64,000 nt of DNA from Trichormus variabilis 0441. Lineage in GTDB: Bacteria; Cyanobacteriota; Cyanobacteriia; Cyanobacteriales; Nostocaceae. Where the stretch lies: the NCBI RefSeq assembly GCF_009856605.1, contig NZ_CP047242.1:1300001-1364000 (forward strand), given 5' to 3'. Within the stretch, counting starts at the first letter, position 1; each line of letters opens with the position of its first letter. The notes under the pieces were generated by a model, which saw only the letters and a program-made list of their open reading frames with translations, made no database searches and was not told where the DNA came from. Below are positions 32,728-47,967 of this stretch, piece by piece. Made by a program: the position numbers and the translations under genes.

Positions 32728-32873
32728 AGTGTTTGACCTCTCCCCAAACCCCTCTCCGACGCGGAGAGGGGCTTAAATATCCTGAAAACTCAACGAAAAT
32801 TAGGGTTTTGAAGCCTCTCTCCTTGCAGGGGAGAGGTTTGGAGAGGGGTTTTTTAAATTCGTCGAACTCACGT
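32728..32873. repeat. partial copy of the 15522-15760 element family
   Basis: CCCAAACCCCTCTCCGACGC pairs roughly with GGAGAGGTTTGGAGAGGGGT, and the right end GTCGAACTCACGT at 32861-32873 is the same 13-bp terminus as in the complete element. The left ACGTGAGTTCGAC end is missing. The right end runs directly into the stop of the large caspase gene. Confidence 0.55.
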
Positions 32874-35800
32874 TAACTAGGACAGAGTTTTTGTTCGTTG
32901 GTCGTAACATGGGGATTGGTGTTGAGGTAATCCTGTAGCCAGTTGCAAGCAGACATGACTAAAGTATTTATCTGGGAAGTTTGGGCTTGCTGGCTATCAA
33001 AACGCCAAATTTTGGTGGTAGTGTCTAAACTGCCGGAGATGAGAGTTTTACCATCTGGGCTAAAAATTGCACTCATGACTCCGGCTTGATGCTGGGGTAG
33101 GGTGGTTAACAGGTGACCGTCGAGTTGCCAAATTTTGACTGTTTTATCTTCGCTGGCTGATGCAATGTAACGACCATCGGGAGAGAAGCTGCTACTATAA
33201 ACTACATCACTATGGCCTGAGAAAGTATGTAGTAAATGACCGTCTTGACTCCTCCAGAGTTTGACGGTTTTGTCGGCGCTGGTTGAAGCAAGCATACTAC
33301 CGTCAGGACTGAAGTTGACGCTGTATACTAAGTCATTATGGGCTGGAAGACTTTTAATTAAGTTGCCGCTAACACTGTCCCAGAGTCGGATAGTTTTGTC
33401 CGCACTAGCAGAGGCGATGATTTTACCATCGGGGCTAAAACTAACCCAAAATACTTCCTCTGTATGACCTTTGAGGATTTGTTTTAACTTACCATCGCTC
33501 ACATTCCAAAGTTTAATTGTGTTGTCTCGGCTGGCGGAAGCGATCGCTTTACCATCTGGGCTAAAATTTACTTTGTTGACTTCGTTATCATGTCCTATGA
33601 GTGTTTTTAAAAGCTGACCATCTCTAACACGCCAAATCTTCACAGTTTTATCGGCGTTGGCGCTAGCGATTAAATCACCTTGGGGTGTAAAACTAATACC
33701 ATAAATTGCTTTGTTCCCTGGTAGGGTTTTTAGTAAACTACCGTCTTGACTGTGCCAAAGCTGAATCTTGCCATCTGCACCTGCTGTAGCAATGATACTA
33801 CCGTCAGGGCTGAAACTGAGCGCATACACGCCGCTATTGCCGGCAAGAACTTCTAAGGGAGATATTAAGGGACGCTGCCAAAGTCTGATGGTGTTGTCTA
33901 AACTAGCGGAAGCGAGAGTTTTACCATCAGGCAGGAAATTTACAGCATACACACCACCGCTATGACCTGTAAAGGTTTCTAGTTCGATGCCGTGACGGTT
34001 CCACAGTTTGATAGTGTTATCTCTACTCGCAGAGGCGATCGCTTTACCATCTTGGCTAAAGTTAACATCCCAGACTGAATCATTGTGACCTTTTAGGGTT
34101 TTGACCAATTTACCATCAGCGATGCGCCACAGTTTGATGGTTTTGTCAGCACTAGCGGAAGCGAGAGTTTTACCATCAGGGCTAAAACTCAGGCTATTTA
34201 CCCAATCTTGATGTCCATTGAGGGTTTTTAATAATTTCCCATCTTGGCGATGCCACAGTTTAACGGTTTTATCTTCGCTAGCGGAAGCGATGGTCTGACC
34301 ATCAGGACTGAAACGCACACTGATAACTCCAGCGCTATGACCATTGAGAGTCATCAAGAGTTGACCAGATGTACTATCCCACAACTTGATGCTGTGATCA
34401 CTACTGGCAGAGGCGAGAGTTTTACCATCGGGACTAAAATTAACATTATTGACTGTTTGCTCATGACCAGTGATGGTTTTGAGTAGGGTTCCATCACTGG
34501 TTTGCCAAAGTTTAATGGTTTTGTCACTCCCCCCGGAAGCAATGGTTTGACCGTCGGGAGAGAAACTTACACTATAAACAGCGTCTTCATGTCCGTTGAG
34601 AGTTCTAAATAACCGACCGTCTCGACTCCAAAGTTTAATAGTCTTATCTAAGCCACCAGAGGCGATAGTTTGACCATCTCCACTGATGCTAATACTAATC
34701 ACGCCGTCCTTATGTCCTTCTAGCCTGTTCCGTTCCTGCATCCCCAACAGGGCTTGTTGTAAGGTAGTGACAGTTGCTAATTTGAGATTATTGGGAACTG
34801 CTATGACATTATTTACCTGTTGTGCAGCTTTGAGACTGGCGATAAGTGCTGCTAATTGTTGATGAGATAACAGATTTGCCTGGGATGAAGAATTTAACGC
34901 TGCAATTTCCCTAAATTGGGCTTCCCTACCTTGCCAATAAGCTAAACCCCCAAAACTGACAGATGCAATACCTAAAACACTCAAGGCGACTACAGCCCTT
35001 TGTGCTTGTTTGAGGCGATTTTTTGCTTGTAATTGTTGATGCTTGCGTTCTGCTAAACAAGCGCCGATAAATTCTTGCACATCCGCCCCTAGTTCATCAG
35101 TCCAGTGAATATAAATGTCTTCGGCTTCTGCTAACCTAGCACCTTGTAATAAAAAGTCTGCTTGTTTGCCGCTTTGTTGCCACAACTGACAAGCATGATT
35201 AATTTGTCTTTGTTTACGCAAGCGATCGCGGTTTTCTTCTAACCACCAGCGCAAAGTTGACCAATGGCGTATTAAAATTTCGTGGGCGACCTCTACTGTA
35301 ACAAAGGGAGTAGGGGAAGCAGGGGAGGCTGGGGAAGCAGGGGAGGAACTTTTACCTTGTGCTTCTATGTCTGTTTCTAAGTTAATTACTACTAATTTGG
35401 CAGTAGTCAAAGCATTGAGGGTTTGTTCTACTAACCCAACCGGATATTTTTTAACTATTAAATCTGACTTATATATGCGTCTTCTGGTATCTTCTGTACC
35501 TTCCCCTAACTGAGTTAATGAAAGAAAAATCCACTTGGCACATTCTTGTAATTGTGGTGGTAAACTTTCATAAACCCCTTGACACGATCGCTCTAATGCG
35601 CCTTTAATTCCCCCTAGTTGTTCTTGATAGCTTTGTAGAGTTAATTTACCAGCCGTTCGTTGTTGCCATAACTGTTCTAAAACAAATTCCAGTAAAGGTA
35701 AATCCCCCACGGATTGATTTAACTCCCGTAACAGCACTTCCACCAGTTCCCCTTCCACCTGCAACCCTACCTGCTGTGCTGGGTTGAGAATCACCCGCCG

Positions 35801-37933
35801 ATAATCATCCAAACTCAGTTTTGGGGGAACTAACACACTAGCTACCTGTAGTGCTTCAGCTAAAGCTGGTACTTCCAAACAAGGAGCAATAAAATCAGCC
35901 CTTAAAGTAATAATTAATTTAAAGCGATCGCCTGCATACTGTACAGCCCCCAATAACAATTCTAGAAATAACTCCCTATCTGGTGATGGTGCAAGGGTAA
36001 ATAATTCCTCAAACTGGTCTATTACCAACACCGTCACCCTATGGGGAAGGCTACGCAGCCAGTAAACAAAACTTTCCACTCCTTGATGTAAAATTCCCTC
36101 AATCACAAGATGGGTTTCTCTCCATTCCCCCAACTTCCTGGCTAAAGCCTCCACAGGATTGACACCAGGACGGATAGTTTTAATCCCCCACTGTTCACTA
36201 TTGGGGATGTGTTTCCCCTGTCGCAGTTGGGGAATGAGTCCAGCTTGCACTACGGAAGACTTCCCACTACCCGAAGCACCGATGACAGCGAGAAATGAGT
36301 TATCCCGCAGATGATGAATTAACTGCTGGGTGACAGTTTCTCTCCCATAAAAATAGGCTGCGTCTGCTTCCGCAAAAGCATTTAAACCCATGTAAGGACA
36401 CACCCCTAAATCCAACCCGCTTGTCTGTTGGCTTTTGTGTGTGTTGTTAGTCAAAATTTCGATAATTCCCTGTGTCCCTGATAGCCAAACATAGAGAGGG
36501 GTTTTACTATCCGCTAAAGATAATTGTAATTGAGCGATCGCCCCAGCCGCAGACAAACCATTTCCTTGAGCAGATATCATCAAGGTATCGAGGAATTTTT
36601 GGGCAAAGTTTTCTGGTGCTTCTGGAGGTGAGGCGCAAGCAATTAAACATTGTCCGTGATGAGATTCAATTTGTAAATCTTCTATCCAATCCCCTAACGA
36701 TGCAGTCCCTAACGGACAATCCAAGATAATTACCTGTTGGCTAGTGCATTGGCGTAACTGTTGTTTTAACCAGGAACGTTTGATGCAGATATCTTCTCCC
36801 AGTCGTAGCCATTCCCCAGCTTCGCTTTCCTCAATGCGTCCCCGCAGATATAACAGAGTTAATTCTGCTTGGGGTTGTTGCCAATGACGAGCGATCGCTG
36901 CTTTAATATCCTCAGCCGATGTTTTAGTAGCTGGCAAATACTCAACCGCAAAATCTCCAGTACTACCCAGAAGTTTACTAATATCTAATGTAATTTTACT
37001 ATTTGATAACCCCTCCACCACCATCCCCAAACCATGATGCACCCCAGAGGCAATTTTCTTTAATCTTTTCCCTAAAATTAATTCCCCCACTCCTTCCACA
37101 ATTCTTTTAGGAGTTTGCAGGGGATATTCGTTATAAAGTTGCGTATCACCTTTACCCCGTTTCTGCTGATTAATTAGCCGTAATTGTTGATTAGTTTTAT
37201 CAATATATTGCAAGGTTTGGTGATATACATAACGATATAAACCATCCAAATAAATCAAGCCTTGACTATCTACCGCCTCACCTTGCAAACCCCGCATCAA
37301 ATAATATGTAAATACCCCATGCCCCAATTCGGGAAATTCCCAAGATTGCTGATTATTATCACAAGAAAGTAAAGCATAAAACCCCTTACTCTTAGCGGCA
37401 CTTTGTTGTAGTAGCTCCACTAGTTGCAGTGTTACTCCCCTAAGAGACATCCCCCCACTATGACAAGCATCTAACCACACTAGCTGATTCTGTACCCCAC
37501 TGTTACCCAAAAGTTGCAATATTTCTTGTAAAGCTAAACCTGTATTTTGCAAGTTTGATTTTTGCGTATCTGCTAAACACAAAAATACTTCTTGTGTCTT
37601 GGGATCTACCACCCCATGACCAGAAAAATAAAATAAAATCGTATCAATAGGGGATACAGTAGACGTTATATCTTGTAGTCTATGACGGACATTTGCTAAA
37701 GATGGTGATTGTGGTGCAAAATCGTGGTAAATGTTGACAATCTTTTGGGTAAATTGGGAGGCCGCCTCAGTTAAAGCCTCAGATAAACCCTGACAATCTA
37801 TTGCTGAGTAATTCAGGTTGGGTAGGTGTTCGTCCTGGTATTGATTTACTCCCACCAGAATTAACCACAACTTAGGGATGTTGGTTTGTTTGGTATGAGT
37901 TGTACGGCTGGTTGAAAGACCAATTGGTGGCAT
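32873..37933 (-). CDS. giant caspase-like peptidase / P-loop NTPase / 14-WD40 protein
   Basis: A 1686-residue protein. Domains in order: a caspase-like peptidase C14 domain (about 20-270, catalytic His106 in YFSGHGV and Cys157 in LDACHSGG); a linker; an nSTAND-type P-loop NTPase with [16 protein letters not shown] near 550 and Walker B-like [12 protein letters not shown]; a helical region with a membrane-like segment near 1000 ([20 protein letters not shown]); then 14 WD40 repeats (about 1085-1655), enough for two seven-bladed propellers. By analogy with STAND proteins, ligand sensing by the propellers would trigger oligomerisation and peptidase activity. The trigger and target are unknown. 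It stands alone. Confidence 0.93.
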
Positions 37934-39560: not shown

Positions 39561-40559
39561 TCAACTTCTCATTAGAATAAGTTTGTGTGGCAAATCATTC
39601 CAAGACAGTGAATCTTGGACAATTTCTTGACGAAAATCTAACCAACCTTGCTCATTGCATAAAGCCAACAAATCATTAATTATTGTGTACCAAAGCAGAG
39701 GTGTATCAGCACGTCCTTGAGCAATAAACTGAGCAGCTTGTGTGAGAAAAGTGGTGATATCTTGCTCCACAAATGCTTGTTTGATGGAAAACCAAGCATA
39801 GGAACGTGGGTAGCGAGATTTTTCAGTGTGAACTGGTAACTGTAAATAATCTGCCGCAATTGTTAACAAATTAGCTACTTGCTTGCGGTCTTGACCTGCC
39901 AAAATTAAAGCAACTTCACCAGTAATTTGGGCAAACATAACAGAGACAAACTCAGGAGGTTGGCGTGCTATGCGTTCAAAACCCCAAGGATGGGGAGTAG
40001 GTAAAGTCTGCAATTGTCCATCAAGATAGGCAAGAAGTTGAGCAGCAAGTGCGATCGCTCCTGTAAAATTTAATCGTCGTGCTTCTGTCCGCACTAGATT
40101 GTGTAACAGTTGGATACGCTGCATCAGGAGAATATCATAACCATATTCTTCCTCTAAAATTGCACTTAATCTTAAAGCCTCCTCAGTGCGACTGTAAACT
40201 TGGTCAAAATTCTGATGACAATAATCGAGATAAGCTGCTGATTGTTCTAAAAATGACTGATGTAGTAGCTTAGATTCCCGTGACAGTGTAGCCATTTGCA
40301 AAGGTTTACGGGCTTCCTCAAATAACTGCGCGGCTGTTGTCAGTTGGCGGTGGCGAGCAGCTACCATCCCTTGACTACGAGCATTACTATAGCGACGCAG
40401 TAATAATTGCTCTTGTAAGGGTAAACGTTGCGCCATCAAAGCTTCTAGTTTTTCGCTAAATAAATCACCACTACCTGCGGGTATATTCATAGTTGCAGTA
40501 CACCCTTGGCGATAACTTTCTGTGATTTCTGCTAGGAGTTGACTAGAAGTATTAAGCAT
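39561..40559 (-). CDS. helical-repeat partner protein of a radical SAM maturase
   Basis: A 332-residue protein, almost entirely helical, with TPR-like helix pairs: EKLEALMAQRLPLQEQLLL, RHRQLTTAAQLFEEA, LLHQSFLEQSAAYLDYC, NFTGAIALAAQLLAYLD. No signal peptide, membrane helix or catalytic motif is seen. Its ATG lies inside the last codons of the radical SAM gene (8-base overlap), so the two are translationally coupled and should work together. A role as adaptor or scaffold recognising the precursor or enzyme is inference. I do not recognise the family. Confidence 0.75.
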   Translation of the reverse strand: MLNTSSQLLAEITESYRQGCTATMNIPAGSGDLFSEKLEALMAQRLPLQEQLLLRRYSNARSQGMVAARHRQLTTAAQLFEEARKPLQMATLSRESKLLHQSFLEQSAAYLDYCHQNFDQVYSRTEEALRLSAILEEEYGYDILLMQRIQLLHNLVRTEARRLNFTGAIALAAQLLAYLDGQLQTLPTPHPWGFERIARQPPEFVSVMFAQITGEVALILAGQDRKQVANLLTIAADYLQLPVHTEKSRYPRSYAWFSIKQAFVEQDITTFLTQAAQFIAQGRADTPLLWYTIINDLLALCNEQGWLDFRQEIVQDSLSWNDLPHKLILMRS

Positions 40560-41910
40560 AAACTAAAGCCTCCTCGTTGGTTTCTGCTTCTTCAATCCGA
40601 GATAACGCATAGGTAAGTAATAAACGTTGCTCAATGTTATGTTTAGCACTGGGGCATGGTTCAATACCTTCTAACCAACTCTTCGGACAGGAACCACCGC
40701 AAACAGGTAGCATGGGGCAAGTAGAACAGGGATATGCACCTTGACGCACTTTATCATTGAAACTAGCTAAACGTTCCCTTTTACCGGGCATCTGTTTACC
40801 TGATAAATGATCAATGGCATATTCATTAGGTGTGCCGTATGTAGGAACATAAGACACCTCTGTACAATTAAAAATATTGCCATAGGCATCAACTAATTCC
40901 GAATGGGGCATTACAGCCATACAAACTAGAGGTCTGCGCTCTGGTAGTAGCCCAACCTTGAAACCTAACTCAATCATTTCCCCAAGCCAAGTTATTTCCC
41001 AATCAGCAAATTCTTCTTTCGATAAGGAACGAGTATGAGCATCATTTCCCCAAGAATGAATCGGTGCAACATAGAAATTAATCTTATCTTGTATCTCTGC
41101 CTCAGCTAATTTTTGTAGTAACAAAGAGACAGATTCATAATTTTGATAATCAACATTACAACGAATATTAATTTGTACATCCAAATCTTGCCGATGAGCT
41201 AAGGCAACCGTATTAGCAAAAATTTTCTCAAATGTAGGTAAGCCATTTTTCTGCATCCGCCGAACATCATGATATTCACCAGTGCCATCAAGAGTAATTT
41301 CAACAGAATTTACGCCTAATTCTTGAACAATTTCCGTTGCTACTTGATGTGTTAAAGCTAAACCATTGGTGACAACTTTTGCATGATAACTACAACCAAA
41401 ACTGGCCGCAAGAGCCTGTAGTTTTGGCGTAAGAGTTCTCATCACTGGCAGACCTACCAAAGGTTCTGCACCAAACCAACCAATTGAGAGACTACGAAAG
41501 TTCTTGCTGGCGAGTTTTTTAGCAGTTCGTTCTATAAATTTTTGTTGCTCATCTTCGGTCATCATTTTGCTAGTATGTTCCTGACCACAGTAATGACAAC
41601 CCAGTTGACAAAAAGCAGTTGGTTGAACAACTAAATGTAGATCATCGTTATCAATTGCTAAGGCATTATTGTAATCTAAAATAGTTTGTAATTCGTTTTC
41701 ATCATCAGGTACAATTAGTTCAACATCAACTAGATCAAACAATATATATTGAGGTAATTGAGCAAAATCACCACTAGCTAAAATGTGCCAACTATGCTCA
41801 TCAATAATTCTGACATTTGATGTTCGACTAGAAAAGATAACGCGCTTTGTTCGTTCTTCAATTTCATCGAAAAATGGTTGTGTTACTACATGATAATGTG
41901 AAAGCTTCAT
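40552..41910 (-). CDS. radical SAM/SPASM domain protein (peptide maturase type)
   Basis: A 452-residue enzyme. An N-terminal region (about 1-90) may be a small peptide-binding domain. The radical SAM cluster motif is CQLGCHYC (Cx3Cx2C, near residue 104), followed by GWFGAEPLVGLP, VTNGLAL and VEITLDGTGEYHDVRR. The C-terminal SPASM part has NCTEVSYVPTYG and CPMLPVCGGSCPKSW plus a later PCPSAKHN Cys, for auxiliary Fe-S clusters. SPASM enzymes modify ribosomally made peptides through radical chemistry. The gene lies between a small exported protein and a coupled helical partner, a typical RiPP-like cassette. Confidence 0.9.
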   Translation of the reverse strand: MKLSHYHVVTQPFFDEIEERTKRVIFSSRTSNVRIIDEHSWHILASGDFAQLPQYILFDLVDVELIVPDDENELQTILDYNNALAIDNDDLHLVVQPTAFCQLGCHYCGQEHTSKMMTEDEQQKFIERTAKKLASKNFRSLSIGWFGAEPLVGLPVMRTLTPKLQALAASFGCSYHAKVVTNGLALTHQVATEIVQELGVNSVEITLDGTGEYHDVRRMQKNGLPTFEKIFANTVALAHRQDLDVQINIRCNVDYQNYESVSLLLQKLAEAEIQDKINFYVAPIHSWGNDAHTRSLSKEEFADWEITWLGEMIELGFKVGLLPERRPLVCMAVMPHSELVDAYGNIFNCTEVSYVPTYGTPNEYAIDHLSGKQMPGKRERLASFNDKVRQGAYPCSTCPMLPVCGGSCPKSWLEGIEPCPSAKHNIEQRLLLTYALSRIEEAETNEEALVYA

Positions 41911-42067
41911 ATTTATAACGTCCCTACAAAATAGACAGGAAATACTTGTGAAGTAAGTTGCTAGTTATCAATTGAAGGATTGGTAATAGATAATAATTCC
42001 GACTCAATTACGAGTTACCAATTACCAAATCCAGAAACCATATCTACATAACTAGCAACTCGATAAA

Positions 42068-42409
42068 TTACTTACGGATTTGATCCTTAAAAGTAGCTGG
42101 ACTAATAACTCTGCGTCCGTTATCAGGTAGGCGTTCAGAGCAACCTGCGTTAACACAACCTGCATTATGTGCGTTTGCTCCACCCGGTTTTATAGTCCCT
42201 GGAAGTTTCTGTACAGAAGGAGTTATATTATCAACTGCCCCTGGACGCACTTTGATAGAATCAGTACTTAAATTAGCGCGGTTCAGGAAATTATCAACAG
42301 CACCAGGTTGGGGAGTTTGAGCATTAACTGCTGGGTTTAAAGCTGCAATGCTTGTCATTGCAATCATGCTGAAAATGAACTTGATTTTGCTGGATTTTTG
42401 AGTAGACAT
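42068..42409 (-). CDS. candidate exported substrate peptide of the radical SAM enzyme
   Basis: A 113-residue protein. The signal peptide (about 10-30, cleavage near VNAQ) precedes two PGAVDN motifs (PQPGAVDNFLNRANL and RPGAVDNITPSV). A Gly/Asn/Cys segment NAHNAGCVNAGCSERLPDNG and a basic end follow. The two Cys in NAGC repeats and the Asn/Asp-rich motifs are plausible sites for radical modification or crosslinking. It is the first gene, 157 bases upstream of and co-directional with the radical SAM gene, and has the size and composition of a precursor. Substrate status is inference; it could also be an unrelated secreted protein. Confidence 0.65.
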   Translation of the reverse strand: MSTQKSSKIKFIFSMIAMTSIAALNPAVNAQTPQPGAVDNFLNRANLSTDSIKVRPGAVDNITPSVQKLPGTIKPGGANAHNAGCVNAGCSERLPDNGRRVISPATFKDQIRK

Positions 42410-42951: not shown

Positions 42952-44109
42952 ATGAATAAGTCGCAATATTGGGTGCATTTATTAACTTGCCAGATACAGC
43001 GAATACATACTTGCGTTGTGAAGGCTGGGCAAACTGTGCAGCTTTCGGCTGAAAAAATTATGCAGATTACCGGGAATAGAAGCTCTAATCAAAAGTATAT
43101 GAGCCTATTCTTGATAGGTACTATATTAAGTGTAGCGATCGCCTCCTGCGCTGGAAGTGGTTTTGCTAACAAAGGTGATGTAAAACTCAAACTCGTTTCC
43201 TTCTCTGTCACCAAAGCCGCACATGATCAGATAATTCCTAAGTTTGTGGAGAAATGGAAACGGGAACATAACCAAAACGTCACAGTTGAAGCGACTTACG
43301 GAGGTTCTGGCGCTCAAACGGCGGCGGTTATTGCAGGCTTGCAAGAAGCAGACATAGTACATTTGGCACTACCTTTAGATGTCATCAAACTCCAACAAGC
43401 AGGTTTAATTAAATCAGGTTGGGAAATCAAAACTCCCAGAAATGGTATTGTTAGTAAATCAGTGGCGGCGATCGTTACTCGTGAGGGTAATCCTAAAAAC
43501 ATTAAAACTTGGGCAGATTTAGCCAAAGATGGGGTGAAAATAATTGCAGCTAACCCAAAAACTTCTGGTATTGCTATTTGGGAATTCTTAGCTTTTTGGA
43601 GTTCCGTCAGCCTAACGGGTGGTGATGAAACAGCAGCATTAGATTATGTCACTAAGGTTTACAAGAATATTCCTGTGCTAACGAAAGATGCTCGTGAAGC
43701 TAGTGATTTATTTTTCCAGAAAGGCGAAGGAGATGTTTTAATTAATTACGAAAATGAGGTTATTTTGGCAGGTAAAAATGGTAACGAACTGCCTTATATT
43801 GTCCCTCAAGTCAATATTTCTATTGATAATCCCGTGGCTCTCGTTGATAAAAACGTTAATAAACACGGTACAAGAGAAGTTTCACAAGCATTTGTTGATT
43901 TTCTTTATTCAACAGAAGCGCAACGGGAATTTGCTAAATTGCAATATCGTCCTGTAAATCCAACTGTTACTCAAGAAGTCGTGTCACAGCAACCGCCAGT
44001 TAAAACTTTATTCACCTCACAAGATTTAGGTGGTTGGGAGCTTATCCAGAAAAAATTTTTTGAAGATGGGGCAATTTTTGACAAAATTCAAGCTGCAAAA
44101 AAAGCGTAA
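42952..44109 (+). CDS. sulfate-type ABC transporter substrate-binding lipoprotein, first gene of a pst operon
   Basis: A 385-residue protein. An unusual N-terminal extension of about 49 residues precedes a lipoprotein signal (SLFLIGTILSVAIASC, lipid-attached Cys near 65). The mature protein has the sulfate-binding pattern: TYGGSGAQTAAVIAGLQEADIVHLAL, NPKTSGIAIWEFLAFW and GDVLINYENEVILAG, as in Sbp/CysP. The following four genes are phosphate transporter components, so this binding protein sits in the wrong family context. It may feed the Pst channel with phosphate or another oxyanion. An AAGG supports the ATG at 42952; an ATG at 43099 would remove the extension. Confidence 0.85.
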   Translation: MNKSQYWVHLLTCQIQRIHTCVVKAGQTVQLSAEKIMQITGNRSSNQKYMSLFLIGTILSVAIASCAGSGFANKGDVKLKLVSFSVTKAAHDQIIPKFVEKWKREHNQNVTVEATYGGSGAQTAAVIAGLQEADIVHLALPLDVIKLQQAGLIKSGWEIKTPRNGIVSKSVAAIVTREGNPKNIKTWADLAKDGVKIIAANPKTSGIAIWEFLAFWSSVSLTGGDETAALDYVTKVYKNIPVLTKDAREASDLFFQKGEGDVLINYENEVILAGKNGNELPYIVPQVNISIDNPVALVDKNVNKHGTREVSQAFVDFLYSTEAQREFAKLQYRPVNPTVTQEVVSQQPPVKTLFTSQDLGGWELIQKKFFEDGAIFDKIQAAKKA

Positions 44110-44158
44110 GCATCACTTTTTATGTAGCAAATAGTCACTTTATTTCAATTGGGAATTT

Positions 44159-45160
44159 ATGAGATTTCATGACAAATTTAAATATAGCTTTTGCTTAACA
44201 TCTTTAATACTTTCTACTAGTACTATCACTGGTTGTAACAGTGGACAAGAATTGAAAAGTCAAGTGAGTATTGATGGTGCAGCCGTAGGCTTTCCTATCT
44301 CTTTAGCTGTTGCCGAAGAATACCAGAAAGTTAAAGCTGACGCAAAAGTTAGCGTTGCTTCTAGTGGTACAGGTGGCGGTTTTAGTAAGTTTTGTAATGG
44401 TGATATTGATATTGTTGGCGCTTCTCGTACCATTAGAAATGAAGAAATTGCCAAATGTAAAAGTAAGAATATTGAGTTTGTAGAGTTACCCATAGGTTTA
44501 GATGGTGTAGCTGTAATTGCTAACCCTAAAAACAAATTTGCTCAATGTCTAACTATTAAAGAAATGAATACGATTTGGAGCGCCAAATCAGACGGTAAAA
44601 TCTTGACTTGGAATCAAGTTAATCCTAAATTTCCTAAGCTACCTCTGAAGCTTTATGCTCCAGCTTCTGATACAGGAACCTTTGATTATTTAACTCAAGC
44701 TGTTACTGGTAAAGCCAAAAATGGACGCACAGACTACACTCCTAGTCATAATCAAAATCTACTAGTACAAGGTGTTTCTGGTGATGAATCAGCATTGGGC
44801 TATGTGGGAATATCTTACTATATTCAAAACCAAGAAAAGCTCAATTTAGTTGCTATAGAAAATCTCAAAGGTGAATGTAAAAAGCCAGTTCCTCTAGATA
44901 ACGTACTCAAAAACACCTACACACCTTTGTCTCGTCCCCTCTTTATCTACGTCAGTAAAATATCTTTAGATAACAAACCAGTAGTTAAAGAATTTGTAGA
45001 TTTTTATTTAGAAAATTCTTGGAAGTGGGTAGATGGCGCTGGTTATGTAGCACTACCTGATGAAGCCTACGTCAAAGTAAAACAAAAATTTGCTGCTGGA
45101 GAGACTGGAACGAAATTTCAAAAAGCCAAACCAGGTGAACCAATCACAAATTTCATTTAG
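44159..45160 (+). CDS. pstS: phosphate ABC transporter substrate-binding lipoprotein
   Basis: A 333-residue periplasmic binding protein. A lipobox ends STITGC near residue 26. Phosphate-contact regions are SIDGAAVGFPIS (first loop), ASSGTGGGFSKFCNGDIDIVGASR (Ser-Gly-Thr-Gly and the Asp-Ile-Asp segment) and SDTGTFDYLTQA. The GDESALGYVGISYY segment is also typical. It captures phosphate for the PstCAB permease and is expected to be PhoB-type (SphR) induced under phosphate limitation; the promoter would be shared with the gene upstream, 49 bases away. Cys pairs (FCNGD, AKCKS, QCLT, GECKK) could form disulfides. It is also close to the cyanobacterial SphX type. Confidence 0.92.
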   Translation: MRFHDKFKYSFCLTSLILSTSTITGCNSGQELKSQVSIDGAAVGFPISLAVAEEYQKVKADAKVSVASSGTGGGFSKFCNGDIDIVGASRTIRNEEIAKCKSKNIEFVELPIGLDGVAVIANPKNKFAQCLTIKEMNTIWSAKSDGKILTWNQVNPKFPKLPLKLYAPASDTGTFDYLTQAVTGKAKNGRTDYTPSHNQNLLVQGVSGDESALGYVGISYYIQNQEKLNLVAIENLKGECKKPVPLDNVLKNTYTPLSRPLFIYVSKISLDNKPVVKEFVDFYLENSWKWVDGAGYVALPDEAYVKVKQKFAAGETGTKFQKAKPGEPITNFI

Positions 45161-45230
45161 AAAATACCCAGTTTTAGCAATTCAAACATGGTCATTTGTA
45201 ATTTGATTTGTATTTATAAATTCAATATCT

Positions 45231-46172
45231 ATGCAAAATAACACTTTTCACGATGATCCTTATTTACTATCTAGACAATCACTAGATAAAAATATATCTG
45301 AAGATATAATAGAAAGGATTGTGGGAGCAATTTTATTTGCTTGTGCTTTAGTTTCCGTGTTGACGACATTTGGTATTGTCTTAATTATCTTTCAGGAAAC
45401 ATTTAGTTTTTTCCAAGAAGTTTCCTTTGCCCAATTCTTTCTCGATACTAAATGGACACCTCTGTTTGCGGAGAGACATTTTGGTGTTTGGCCTTTAATT
45501 AATGGCACTTTCTTGACTACAGCTATTGCTATGTCGGTGGCGATTCCTTTGGGTTTATCTTCTGCCATTTACTTGAGTGAATATGCTCAACCCAAAGTAG
45601 CAGCAGTTTTACGCCCTGCGGTGGAACTTTTAGCGGGTGTGCCAACGGTAGTATATGGCTACTTTGCGCTATTGTTTCTCACGCCATTACTACGATATTT
45701 GATTCCTTTGGAAATATTCAACGCCTTGAGTGCAGGATTGATGATGGGAGTAATGATTACTCCTACCGTTGGTTCTATTAGTTTGGATGCTATTCGCTCA
45801 GTTCCACGTTCTTTGCGGGAAGGAGCTTATGCTTTGGGTATTACTAAATTGGAAACCATTTTTAAAGTAGTCTTACCAGCAGCACTTTCGGGAATTGTTG
45901 CCTCAATTATTTTAGGTATTTCTCGCGCCGTAGGTGAAACAATGACTGTACTCATTGCTGCTGGACTACAGCCAAAACTGACTATTAGCTTTGCAGAGTC
46001 AATAGCAACCATGACAGCTTACATGGCACAAATCTCTGGAGGAGATAGCCCGCGTGGAAGCCTTAATTTCAAGACTTTATATGCTGTGGGGGCAGTTTTG
46101 TTTGTTCTTACCCTATCCTTAAATATTGTTAGTTACTGGATTGCTAATCGTTATAAAGAAAAGTACGAGTAA
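45231..46172 (+). CDS. pstC: phosphate ABC transporter permease PstC
   Basis: A 313-residue inner-membrane permease with six predicted helices. Landmarks are the first helix (ILFACALVSVLTTFGIVLI), FGVWPLINGTFLTTAIAMSV, the AELLAGVPTVVYG-type loop seen here as ELLAGVPTVVYGYFALLFL, and the cytoplasmic EAA loop REGAYALGITKLETIFKVVL followed by GISRAVGETM. These features are specific for PstC. It lies between pstS and pstA, six bases before pstA. The 30 N-terminal residues are polar and cytoplasmic. Confidence 0.95.
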   Translation: MQNNTFHDDPYLLSRQSLDKNISEDIIERIVGAILFACALVSVLTTFGIVLIIFQETFSFFQEVSFAQFFLDTKWTPLFAERHFGVWPLINGTFLTTAIAMSVAIPLGLSSAIYLSEYAQPKVAAVLRPAVELLAGVPTVVYGYFALLFLTPLLRYLIPLEIFNALSAGLMMGVMITPTVGSISLDAIRSVPRSLREGAYALGITKLETIFKVVLPAALSGIVASIILGISRAVGETMTVLIAAGLQPKLTISFAESIATMTAYMAQISGGDSPRGSLNFKTLYAVGAVLFVLTLSLNIVSYWIANRYKEKYE

Positions 46173-46178
46173 TTAGGT

Positions 46179-47078
46179 ATGGCTAATAGTTATCAATCAA
46201 ATGATTCCTTGGCATCTGAGACAGAATTTACTGATAATGTTGATAGAAGAGAGACTTTAGGAAAAATATTTGAATTAGTTTTTTTGTTAGGATTATTGAT
46301 TGGTATATTCGTCCTAGCATTGCTACTATTTGATATTTTTGGAGACGGATTAGGTAGATTTTTAACACCTGGTTTTCTGACAGAAACCCCTTCTCGCTTT
46401 CCTGACGAAGGTGGTATCCGTCCTGCTATTATCAGCAGCATTCTTTTGGGACTTGTGGTGATTTTTGTTACTGTTCCCATTGGTGTAGGAGCAGCTTTAT
46501 ATCTAGAAGAGTATGCACCTAAAGTTTGGTGGACAGCGATTATTGAGATAAATATCAGTAATCTAGCGGGTGTACCTTCTATTGTCTATGGTTTGCTAGG
46601 TTTAGGGGTGTTTAATTATTTATTGGGATTCGGCCCCGCTTTAATTTCTGGAGCCTTGACTTTATCTTTACTGTCTTTACCAGTGATTATTGTCACCTCT
46701 AGAGAAGCTATTCGCGCTGTTCCTGATTCCTTAAGAAACGCTTCTTACGGATTAGGTGTTACCAAATGGCAAACTATCCGCAGTCATGTCATACCCTATG
46801 CTATTCCCGGTATCTTGACCGGGGTGATTATCTCAGTGTCTCGTGCCATCGGTGATGCAGCCTCGTTAATTGTTGTAGGTGCTGTGGGTTTTCTCACTTT
46901 CGATCCTGGTTTGTTCCAGAGATTTATGGCACTACCTATTCAAATTTACAGTTACATCACTCGTCCTGAACCGGGTTTTGCTAGTGCAGCAGCAGCAACA
47001 ATTATTGCACTTTTGAGCTTGATTTTACTCTTAAATGGTGTGGCAATTTATATCCGACAGCGATTTTCCCTTCGTTAA
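46179..47078 (+). CDS. pstA: phosphate ABC transporter permease PstA
   Basis: A 299-residue permease with six helices. PstA features are FPDEGGIRPAIISSILLG, GVGAALYLEEYAP, NLAGVPSIVYGLLGLGVF and the EAA loop DSLRNASYGLGVTKWQTIRSHVIP with SRAIGDAASLIVVGA. It pairs with PstC to form the membrane channel. The six-base spacing from pstC indicates co-translation. The first 25 residues are acidic and cytoplasmic. Confidence 0.95.
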   Translation: MANSYQSNDSLASETEFTDNVDRRETLGKIFELVFLLGLLIGIFVLALLLFDIFGDGLGRFLTPGFLTETPSRFPDEGGIRPAIISSILLGLVVIFVTVPIGVGAALYLEEYAPKVWWTAIIEINISNLAGVPSIVYGLLGLGVFNYLLGFGPALISGALTLSLLSLPVIIVTSREAIRAVPDSLRNASYGLGVTKWQTIRSHVIPYAIPGILTGVIISVSRAIGDAASLIVVGAVGFLTFDPGLFQRFMALPIQIYSYITRPEPGFASAAAATIIALLSLILLLNGVAIYIRQRFSLR

Positions 47079-47139
47079 ATAATCAAGGTAATCTTCATAA
47101 AATTAGTCCAAATTTCATTCAGATTAGGAAACTTTAATT

Positions 47140-47967
47140 ATGTCCTACAACAGTAGAAATCAACGAGATAGTGCCACAATCAATCACAAGAATCAAGCTG
47201 TATTTAATGTTGAAGGTGTCAAGGTCTATTATGGTGGATTTTTAGCACTAATTGATGTACATTTGCAAATACCAGATAAGGAAATTATTGCGTTTATTGG
47301 ACCTTCTGGATGTGGTAAAAGTACATTATTACGCTGCTTTAATCGCATGAATGATTTAATCCCCGGAGCCAAGGTAGAAGGGAGATTACATTACCGCGAT
47401 CGCAACATTTATGACTCCAGAATTAATTCTGTAAAATTGCGCCGTCAAGTAGGAATGGTGTTTCAAAGACCTAACCCCTTTCCTAAATCTATATATGAAA
47501 ATATTGCTTTTAGCCCTCGTGCTAATGGCTATAAAGGGAATCTGGATGAATTAGTAGAAGATTCTCTCAGACGTGCTGCTATCTGGAATGAAGTCAAAGA
47601 CAAACTCAAAGCCAAAGGTACGGCTTTATCTGGTGGACAACAGCAACGGCTGTGTATTGCCAGAGCGATCGCCATGAAGCCCGATGTATTATTAATGGAT
47701 GAACCATGCTCTGCTCTTGACCCTATTTCTACACGTCAAGTAGAAGAACTTTGCTTAGAACTGAAGGAGCAATACACCATAATTATGGTGACTCATAATA
47801 TGCAGCAGGCTTCTAGAGTAGCAGATTGGACAGCATTTTTTAATACAGAAATTGATGAATATGGTAAGCGTCGGGGTAAATTAGTAGAATTTAGTCCTAC
47901 AGAACAAATGTTCAATTCTCCCAATACTAAAGAAGCACAAGAATATATCAGTGGACGCTTTGGGTAA
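47140..47967 (+). CDS. pstB: phosphate ABC transporter ATPase PstB
   Basis: A 275-residue ATPase. Walker A is [11 protein letters not shown], the Q-loop is [18 protein letters not shown], the signature is LSGGQQQRL, Walker B is [13 protein letters not shown], and the switch His is in [16 protein letters not shown]. The PNPFPKSI segment and the length are typical of PstB. It powers phosphate uptake through PstCA. It is the last gene of the operon; the NACHT gene converges with only seven bases between the stops, and no PhoU gene follows. Confidence 0.96.

Follow-up and report, generated by a model that had tools for sequence, protein, structure and literature searches.

Three leftward genes in the window (the whole 64,000-nucleotide stretch of Trichormus variabilis 0441 DNA analysed here) are arranged like an operon for the modification of a small exported peptide, which raises the question of which genes belong together, what the enzyme would do to its substrate and how the product would leave the cell. 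The preliminary description had proposed the order precursor, maturase and helical partner, the last overlapping the maturase gene by 8 bases, and the minus-strand open reading frames lie exactly so (Table 1). We consider it likely that the first two genes make up an NxxC-type (ranthipeptide-like) RiPP system, in which Asn-Cys thioether rings would be installed before export by Sec.

Table 1. Features of the candidate peptide-modification operon, in window coordinates
Feature	Position	Strand	Basis
Precursor gene, 113 aa	42068..42409	-	ORF; homologue directly upstream of maturase in 14/14 clade loci and L134
Radical SAM/SPASM maturase, 452 aa	40552..41910	-	PF04055, TIGR04085 SPASM; 32-member alignment
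Candidate helical RiPP-accessory protein, 332 aa	39561..40559	-	No Pfam family; homologues in other RiPP clusters
Maturase/helical gene overlap, 8 bases	40552-40559	-	
Putative Sec signal peptide, residues 1-30	42320..42409	-	Hydrophobic stretch and AxA-type site
Leader motif FLNRANLST, residues 41-49	42263..42289	-	Similar segments in cyanobacterial alignment
Core NAGCVNAGC, two NxxC units, residues 82-90	42140..42166	-	N at -3 of Cys enriched in maturase family
CxxxCxxC radical SAM cluster motif, C101-C108	41587..41610	-	Invariant, 32/32
SPASM cysteines C330-C419	40654..40923	-	Invariant, 32/32
Precursor-maturase intergenic stem-loop	41915..42075	-	RNA fold z-score -3.18

A precursor gene and its maturase

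The enzyme matches PF04055 and, with 37.4 bits, exceeds the cut-off of 27 for TIGR04085, the general model of the SPASM domain. The Cx3Cx2C motif and SPASM cluster read in it at the outset are borne out by an alignment of 32 relatives, chosen among the best 120 of 1206 found, in which all ten cysteines are invariant (32/32): C101, C105 and C108 of the radical SAM motif, and C330, C349, C395, C398, C404, C408 and C419 of the SPASM domain. No family-level NCBIfam model reaches its cut-off among the best 25 of 47 matches. The best of these is TIGR04463 (194.9 of 525 bits), followed by the models for CefB (147.7/600), geopeptide (126.5/400) and Clo7bot (124.8/600) maturases, which are the nearest profiles over most of the enzyme's length and yet lie far below their cut-offs. 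All 32 aligned maturases match TIGR04463 and the same leading models by E-value, the bit scores set against cut-offs being those of the window protein. Among models of thioether enzymes whose product is known, those for PapB (73.4 bits) and SCIFF match weakly, and the cut-offs for SCIFF (TIGR03974, 42.2 of 425 bits), GrrM (TIGR04261, 40.8 of 310) and nif11 radical SAM enzymes (TIGR04064, 60.6 of 518.7) are not passed; the precursor has no Nif11 match in the NCBIfam profile search. The preliminary description had likewise placed the precursor in neither the GrrA nor the nif11 family. GrrA/GrrM, a cyclophane system, also combines a small precursor with a SPASM enzyme, but besides the low GrrM score the window precursor lacks a Gly-rich repeat. 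A search of solved structures by sequence returned six radical SAM matches, the best being 5wgg, the SCIFF maturase CteB. An N-terminal recognition domain, not detected in the maturase, is assumed.

Pairing of the two genes was followed in a family survey of 217 genomes. Maturase matches (threshold E 1e-20) occur in 18 of them: nine encode a full-length enzyme and seven a distant one 28-30% identical, while the matches in the other two, G155 and the stop-containing G146, are fragmentary. With the precursor profile, strong matches (E below 1e-26) number nine, and the genomes that hold them are the very nine that encode the enzyme at full length, so that no strongly matching precursor was found without one. 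Three weaker matches (E 1.4e-4 to 7e-3) were considered as orphan precursors; the two that were read are unrelated exported proteins, and the third belongs to L111. The cyanobacterial maturases form a clade of 14 loci (branch support 100/98) and in 14/14 the precursor lies directly upstream of the maturase, as it does in a fifteenth cyanobacterial locus, L134, which lies outside the tree and comes from a phylum sample in which 4/386 genomes matched at E 1e-60. No other neighbour is common to all 14 clade loci. The association put forward in the preliminary description therefore holds across the cyanobacterial clade, where the precursor is neither widespread on its own nor replaced throughout by another small protein beside the maturase. 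Outside this clade the maturase family pairs with precursors that have a different leader, many of them with the same core rule. The titles and abstract beginnings that we searched, most subscription papers lying outside the search, contain no account of this precursor-maturase family. The two fragmentary maturases (loci L152 in G155 and L153 in G146) are broken remnants with no strong precursor match.

The core of the precursor

Two features of the window peptide had drawn attention, a PGAVDN motif found twice (residues 35-40 and 56-61) and a tail with the core NAGC-V-NAGC (N82-C85 and N87-C90). Both are present, but in a 16-row alignment the second PGAVDN copy reads PGVVNN in the window's three closest relatives and is missing from the remaining rows, and PGAVDN was dropped as a recognition motif because it is not conserved. 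What is conserved instead is the pattern [N/D]xxC. A leader motif common to several phyla was also rejected as not significant, since a matrix built from 12 hand-read cyanobacterial segments gave best p values of 0.016 (L049), 0.054 (L036) and 0.098 (L039) among 34 peptides tested. A single sequence pair, the window and its nearest relative, L021 (maturases 94% identical), has 0/31 residues changed in the signal, 9/48 in leader and linker, 6/12 in the core and 4/21 in the tail, and would fit a constant delivery part joined to a changing product.

The core rule was examined in 82 loci, made up of the window, L004 and the 80 top-ranked of 370 from a scan of genome contigs, taking as candidate precursor the nearest upstream small ORF with at least two Cys, a choice blind to Asn and Asp. 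A candidate was found in 53/82 loci, giving 45 peptides after removal of near-copies, while the remaining 29/82, among them many of the more distant loci, have none under this rule; as only near-copies were pruned, a few chance ORFs will be among the 45. In the window, L004 and L021-L064, a similarity-ranked set that includes Bacteroidota outside the cyanobacterial neighbourhood, Asn occupies position -3 of 59/79 core cysteines and Asp that of 8/79, and no other offset exceeds 18% Asn. Across 2000 within-core shuffles the corresponding Asn count averaged 8.7 and never exceeded 18. When all 45 peptides are taken together, Asn is at -3 of 71/132 cysteines. The rule is not general to Cys-rich peptides beside such enzymes, because in a related Bacteroidota clade 0/24 cysteines follow it (7/9 rows with a candidate).

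Comparison with control segments points the same way. A double [N/D]xxC is found in the upstream ORF of 24/35 maturases of a clade supported at 98/95 (the other 11/35 have none) versus 1/466 control segments, in 9/14 cyanobacterial loci versus 0/190, and in 36 of all 82 loci versus 19/1175, controls that may include second precursors. The test with a single [N/D]xxC is less sharp (30/35 versus 82/466). Among the 15 cyanobacterial precursors, Asn or Asp stands at -3 of both core cysteines in ten, of one in three and of neither in two, both from Myxacorys (L030 and L032). Out of this sample, a relative on a Rhizobium etli plasmid (maturase 43.5% identical) has an annotated gene upstream for a 77-aa peptide whose only Cys lies in NSGC, ruling out an intrachain disulfide there. 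A Streptomyces plasmid relative has no clear peptide upstream of its maturase. A Methylomagnum plasmid relative is annotated as TIGR04463 and pairs with CefA, a peptide unlike the window precursor: its Cys residues recur at intervals of about five, and inspection by eye shows no preference for Asn at -3. NxxC peptides with a start that looks signal-peptide-like by eye are also encoded in two Caedibacter loci on a separate tree branch (L052 and L054), some 820 bases upstream of the maturase gene. Because the rule names the residues involved, the substrate positions are directly testable.

Proposed thioether rings and export

What the enzyme might do with these residues is suggested by a streptococcal pair. 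According to the available portions of the published accounts, NxxcB joins Cys23 of NxxcA to the beta carbon of Asn20 in a beta-thioether (PMC8326336, PMC13361665). The likeness to the window system is one of motif and enzyme type, an Asn-x-x-Cys core (here NAGCVNAGC) in a peptide whose gene adjoins that of a radical SAM/SPASM enzyme, and the window system differs in its tandem NxxC units, its signal-peptide-like start and its cyanobacterial host. By analogy, we propose that the precursor would be synthesised with a short leader behind a Sec signal peptide, and that in the cytoplasm the maturase would remove a hydrogen at the beta carbon of Asn, or at times of Asp, and bond this carbon to the Cys three residues on. 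In the window peptide two small thioether rings would result, one linking Asn82 to Cys85 and the other Asn87 to Cys90. Sec would then export the modified peptide and signal peptidase would cleave it, so that a dedicated exporter would not be needed. Gene pairing and core motif are established at the level of sequence; the bond, the order of the steps and Sec export in the window system are what we infer from them. The system is rare, some copies are broken and the core changes fast, which suggests a peptide secreted to compete or to signal.

Export by Sec is proposed from the composition of the precursor N terminus, which has lysines, a hydrophobic stretch and an AVNA↓Q site. A hydrophobic signal-like start is present, again by composition, in 15/15 cyanobacterial precursors, and a pattern for an AxA-type cleavage site matches 14/15, all except L032. 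Most other precursors beside the maturase family have no such start, and neither does that of Roseofilum (L036), a cyanobacterium outside the clade. No gene for a C39 peptidase-transporter (C39-ABC) was seen in the flanks, some of them short, of 13/13 cyanobacterial loci, while 23/81 loci carry one, every one in Bacteroidota. The C39 exporter is also absent from Proteobacteria loci, where most precursors are without a signal peptide; its absence alone is therefore weak evidence for Sec export. Another ABC ATPase lies in the flanks of 4/13 cyanobacterial loci (L022, L024, L025 and L030). Signal-bearing RiPPs have a precedent in the bufferins, whose precursors, as the accessible part of the report describes them, have an N-terminal signal peptide and are sent to the periplasm (PMC12538549); bufferins are unlike the window system in relying on MNIO enzymes that form thiooxazoles, not on a radical SAM enzyme.

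The reading of the 113-aa protein as a substrate has to be set against that of an ordinary exported protein with two disulfide cysteines, the maturase acting on another substrate. Its signal-like start, unlike most precursors beside this enzyme family, would suit such a protein, but its 9/9 co-occurrence and 14/14 adjacency with the maturase, the sharing of the core rule with leader-bearing peptides of other phyla and the single-Cys relative in Rhizobium make this very improbable. A true precursor-maturase pair with a different chemistry, whether an alpha-thioether as in sactipeptides, an epimerisation or another radical modification at or near Asn and Cys, deserves more weight, given the many reactions that radical SAM/SPASM enzymes carry out, the four closest profiles, whose products are not known to us, and the two Myxacorys precursors without Asn or Asp at -3. 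We nevertheless judge it unlikely, because the Asn preference is specific to the -3 position, as in the one solved NxxC case in the portions of the reports available. Asn-Cys thioether formation thus stays our preferred reading of the pair.

The helical protein and the surrounding genes

The third gene fits the operon less tightly. The term helical comes from a reading of the protein's primary structure and from two database names, its 55 database relatives being called 'hypothetical', 'uncharacterized' and, twice, 'TPR repeat'. It has no Pfam family (one weak match in 1/47 members) and a single weak match among solved structures searched by sequence (E 0.02). It might be an essential third component of the pathway, a peptide binder or chaperone, as would suit the 8-base overlap with the maturase gene, the homologues that neighbour LanM, HopA1-domain and short radical SAM genes, and at least six maturase and helical-protein entries of the protein database whose longest contigs are equal in length, so that the pairing would be wider than the genomes show. 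We find this doubtful, since the gene is present in only 4/14 clade loci (L030, with 84 bases of downstream flank, cannot be judged) and is missing, at E 1e-4, from 5/9 genomes that encode a full-length maturase. The partner of the preliminary description is thus a real gene overlapping the maturase, but an optional one that also occurs in RiPP clusters of other classes.

The protein is found in 19/217 genomes, with 17 copies away from the maturase, of which 15 were examined (left out were the G109 copy and the copy on contig C147 of G095). Their neighbourhoods hold seven LanM lanthionine synthetases, six shorter radical SAM enzymes and one HopA1-domain gene, and one lies at a contig edge. In four of the six radical SAM loci (L139, L143, L145 and L147) the GG-leader peptides carry one NxxC or more; none was seen in L140 and L141. 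These systems from Nostocaceae relatives, with NHLM/C39 export, share the helical protein with the window and differ from it in their GG-type leader, their dedicated exporter genes and their enzymes, which are shorter than the window maturase and 25-27% identical to it. The occurrence of relatives in other RiPP clusters makes a role of the helical protein in precursor handling probable. Members of the family (L137-L151) flag RiPP clusters of different classes and could be used to mine genomes for them.

A broader reading, to which we give an even chance, is that a cross-phylum radical SAM/SPASM family, for which no family-level model above cut-off was found, makes tandem Asn-Cys thioether rings, that in cyanobacteria a Sec signal on the substrate has let the pathway shrink to two genes, and that the helical protein is a class-independent accessory common to lanthipeptide, radical SAM and HopA1-type clusters. 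If true, NxxC beta-thioether chemistry, streptococcal so far in the reports as available, would extend to cyanobacteria, Proteobacteria, Planctomycetes and Bacteroidota, there would be a compact two-gene system in which modification precedes ordinary Sec export, and a helper protein would be common to unrelated RiPP chemistries.

Other features of the region can be noted. The stem-loop between precursor and maturase is an inverted repeat with partial copies at seven other places in the genome, and may be either a repeat element or an attenuator. The divergent solute-binding and phosphate-type ABC transport genes at 42952-47967 (+) were set aside as partners, as they are not conserved beside other cyanobacterial maturase copies. 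Downstream of the operon, 32873-37933 (-) encodes a 1686-aa protein with an nSTAND1 NTPase and WD40 repeats, and genes resembling it also come after the helical gene in L023 and L004.
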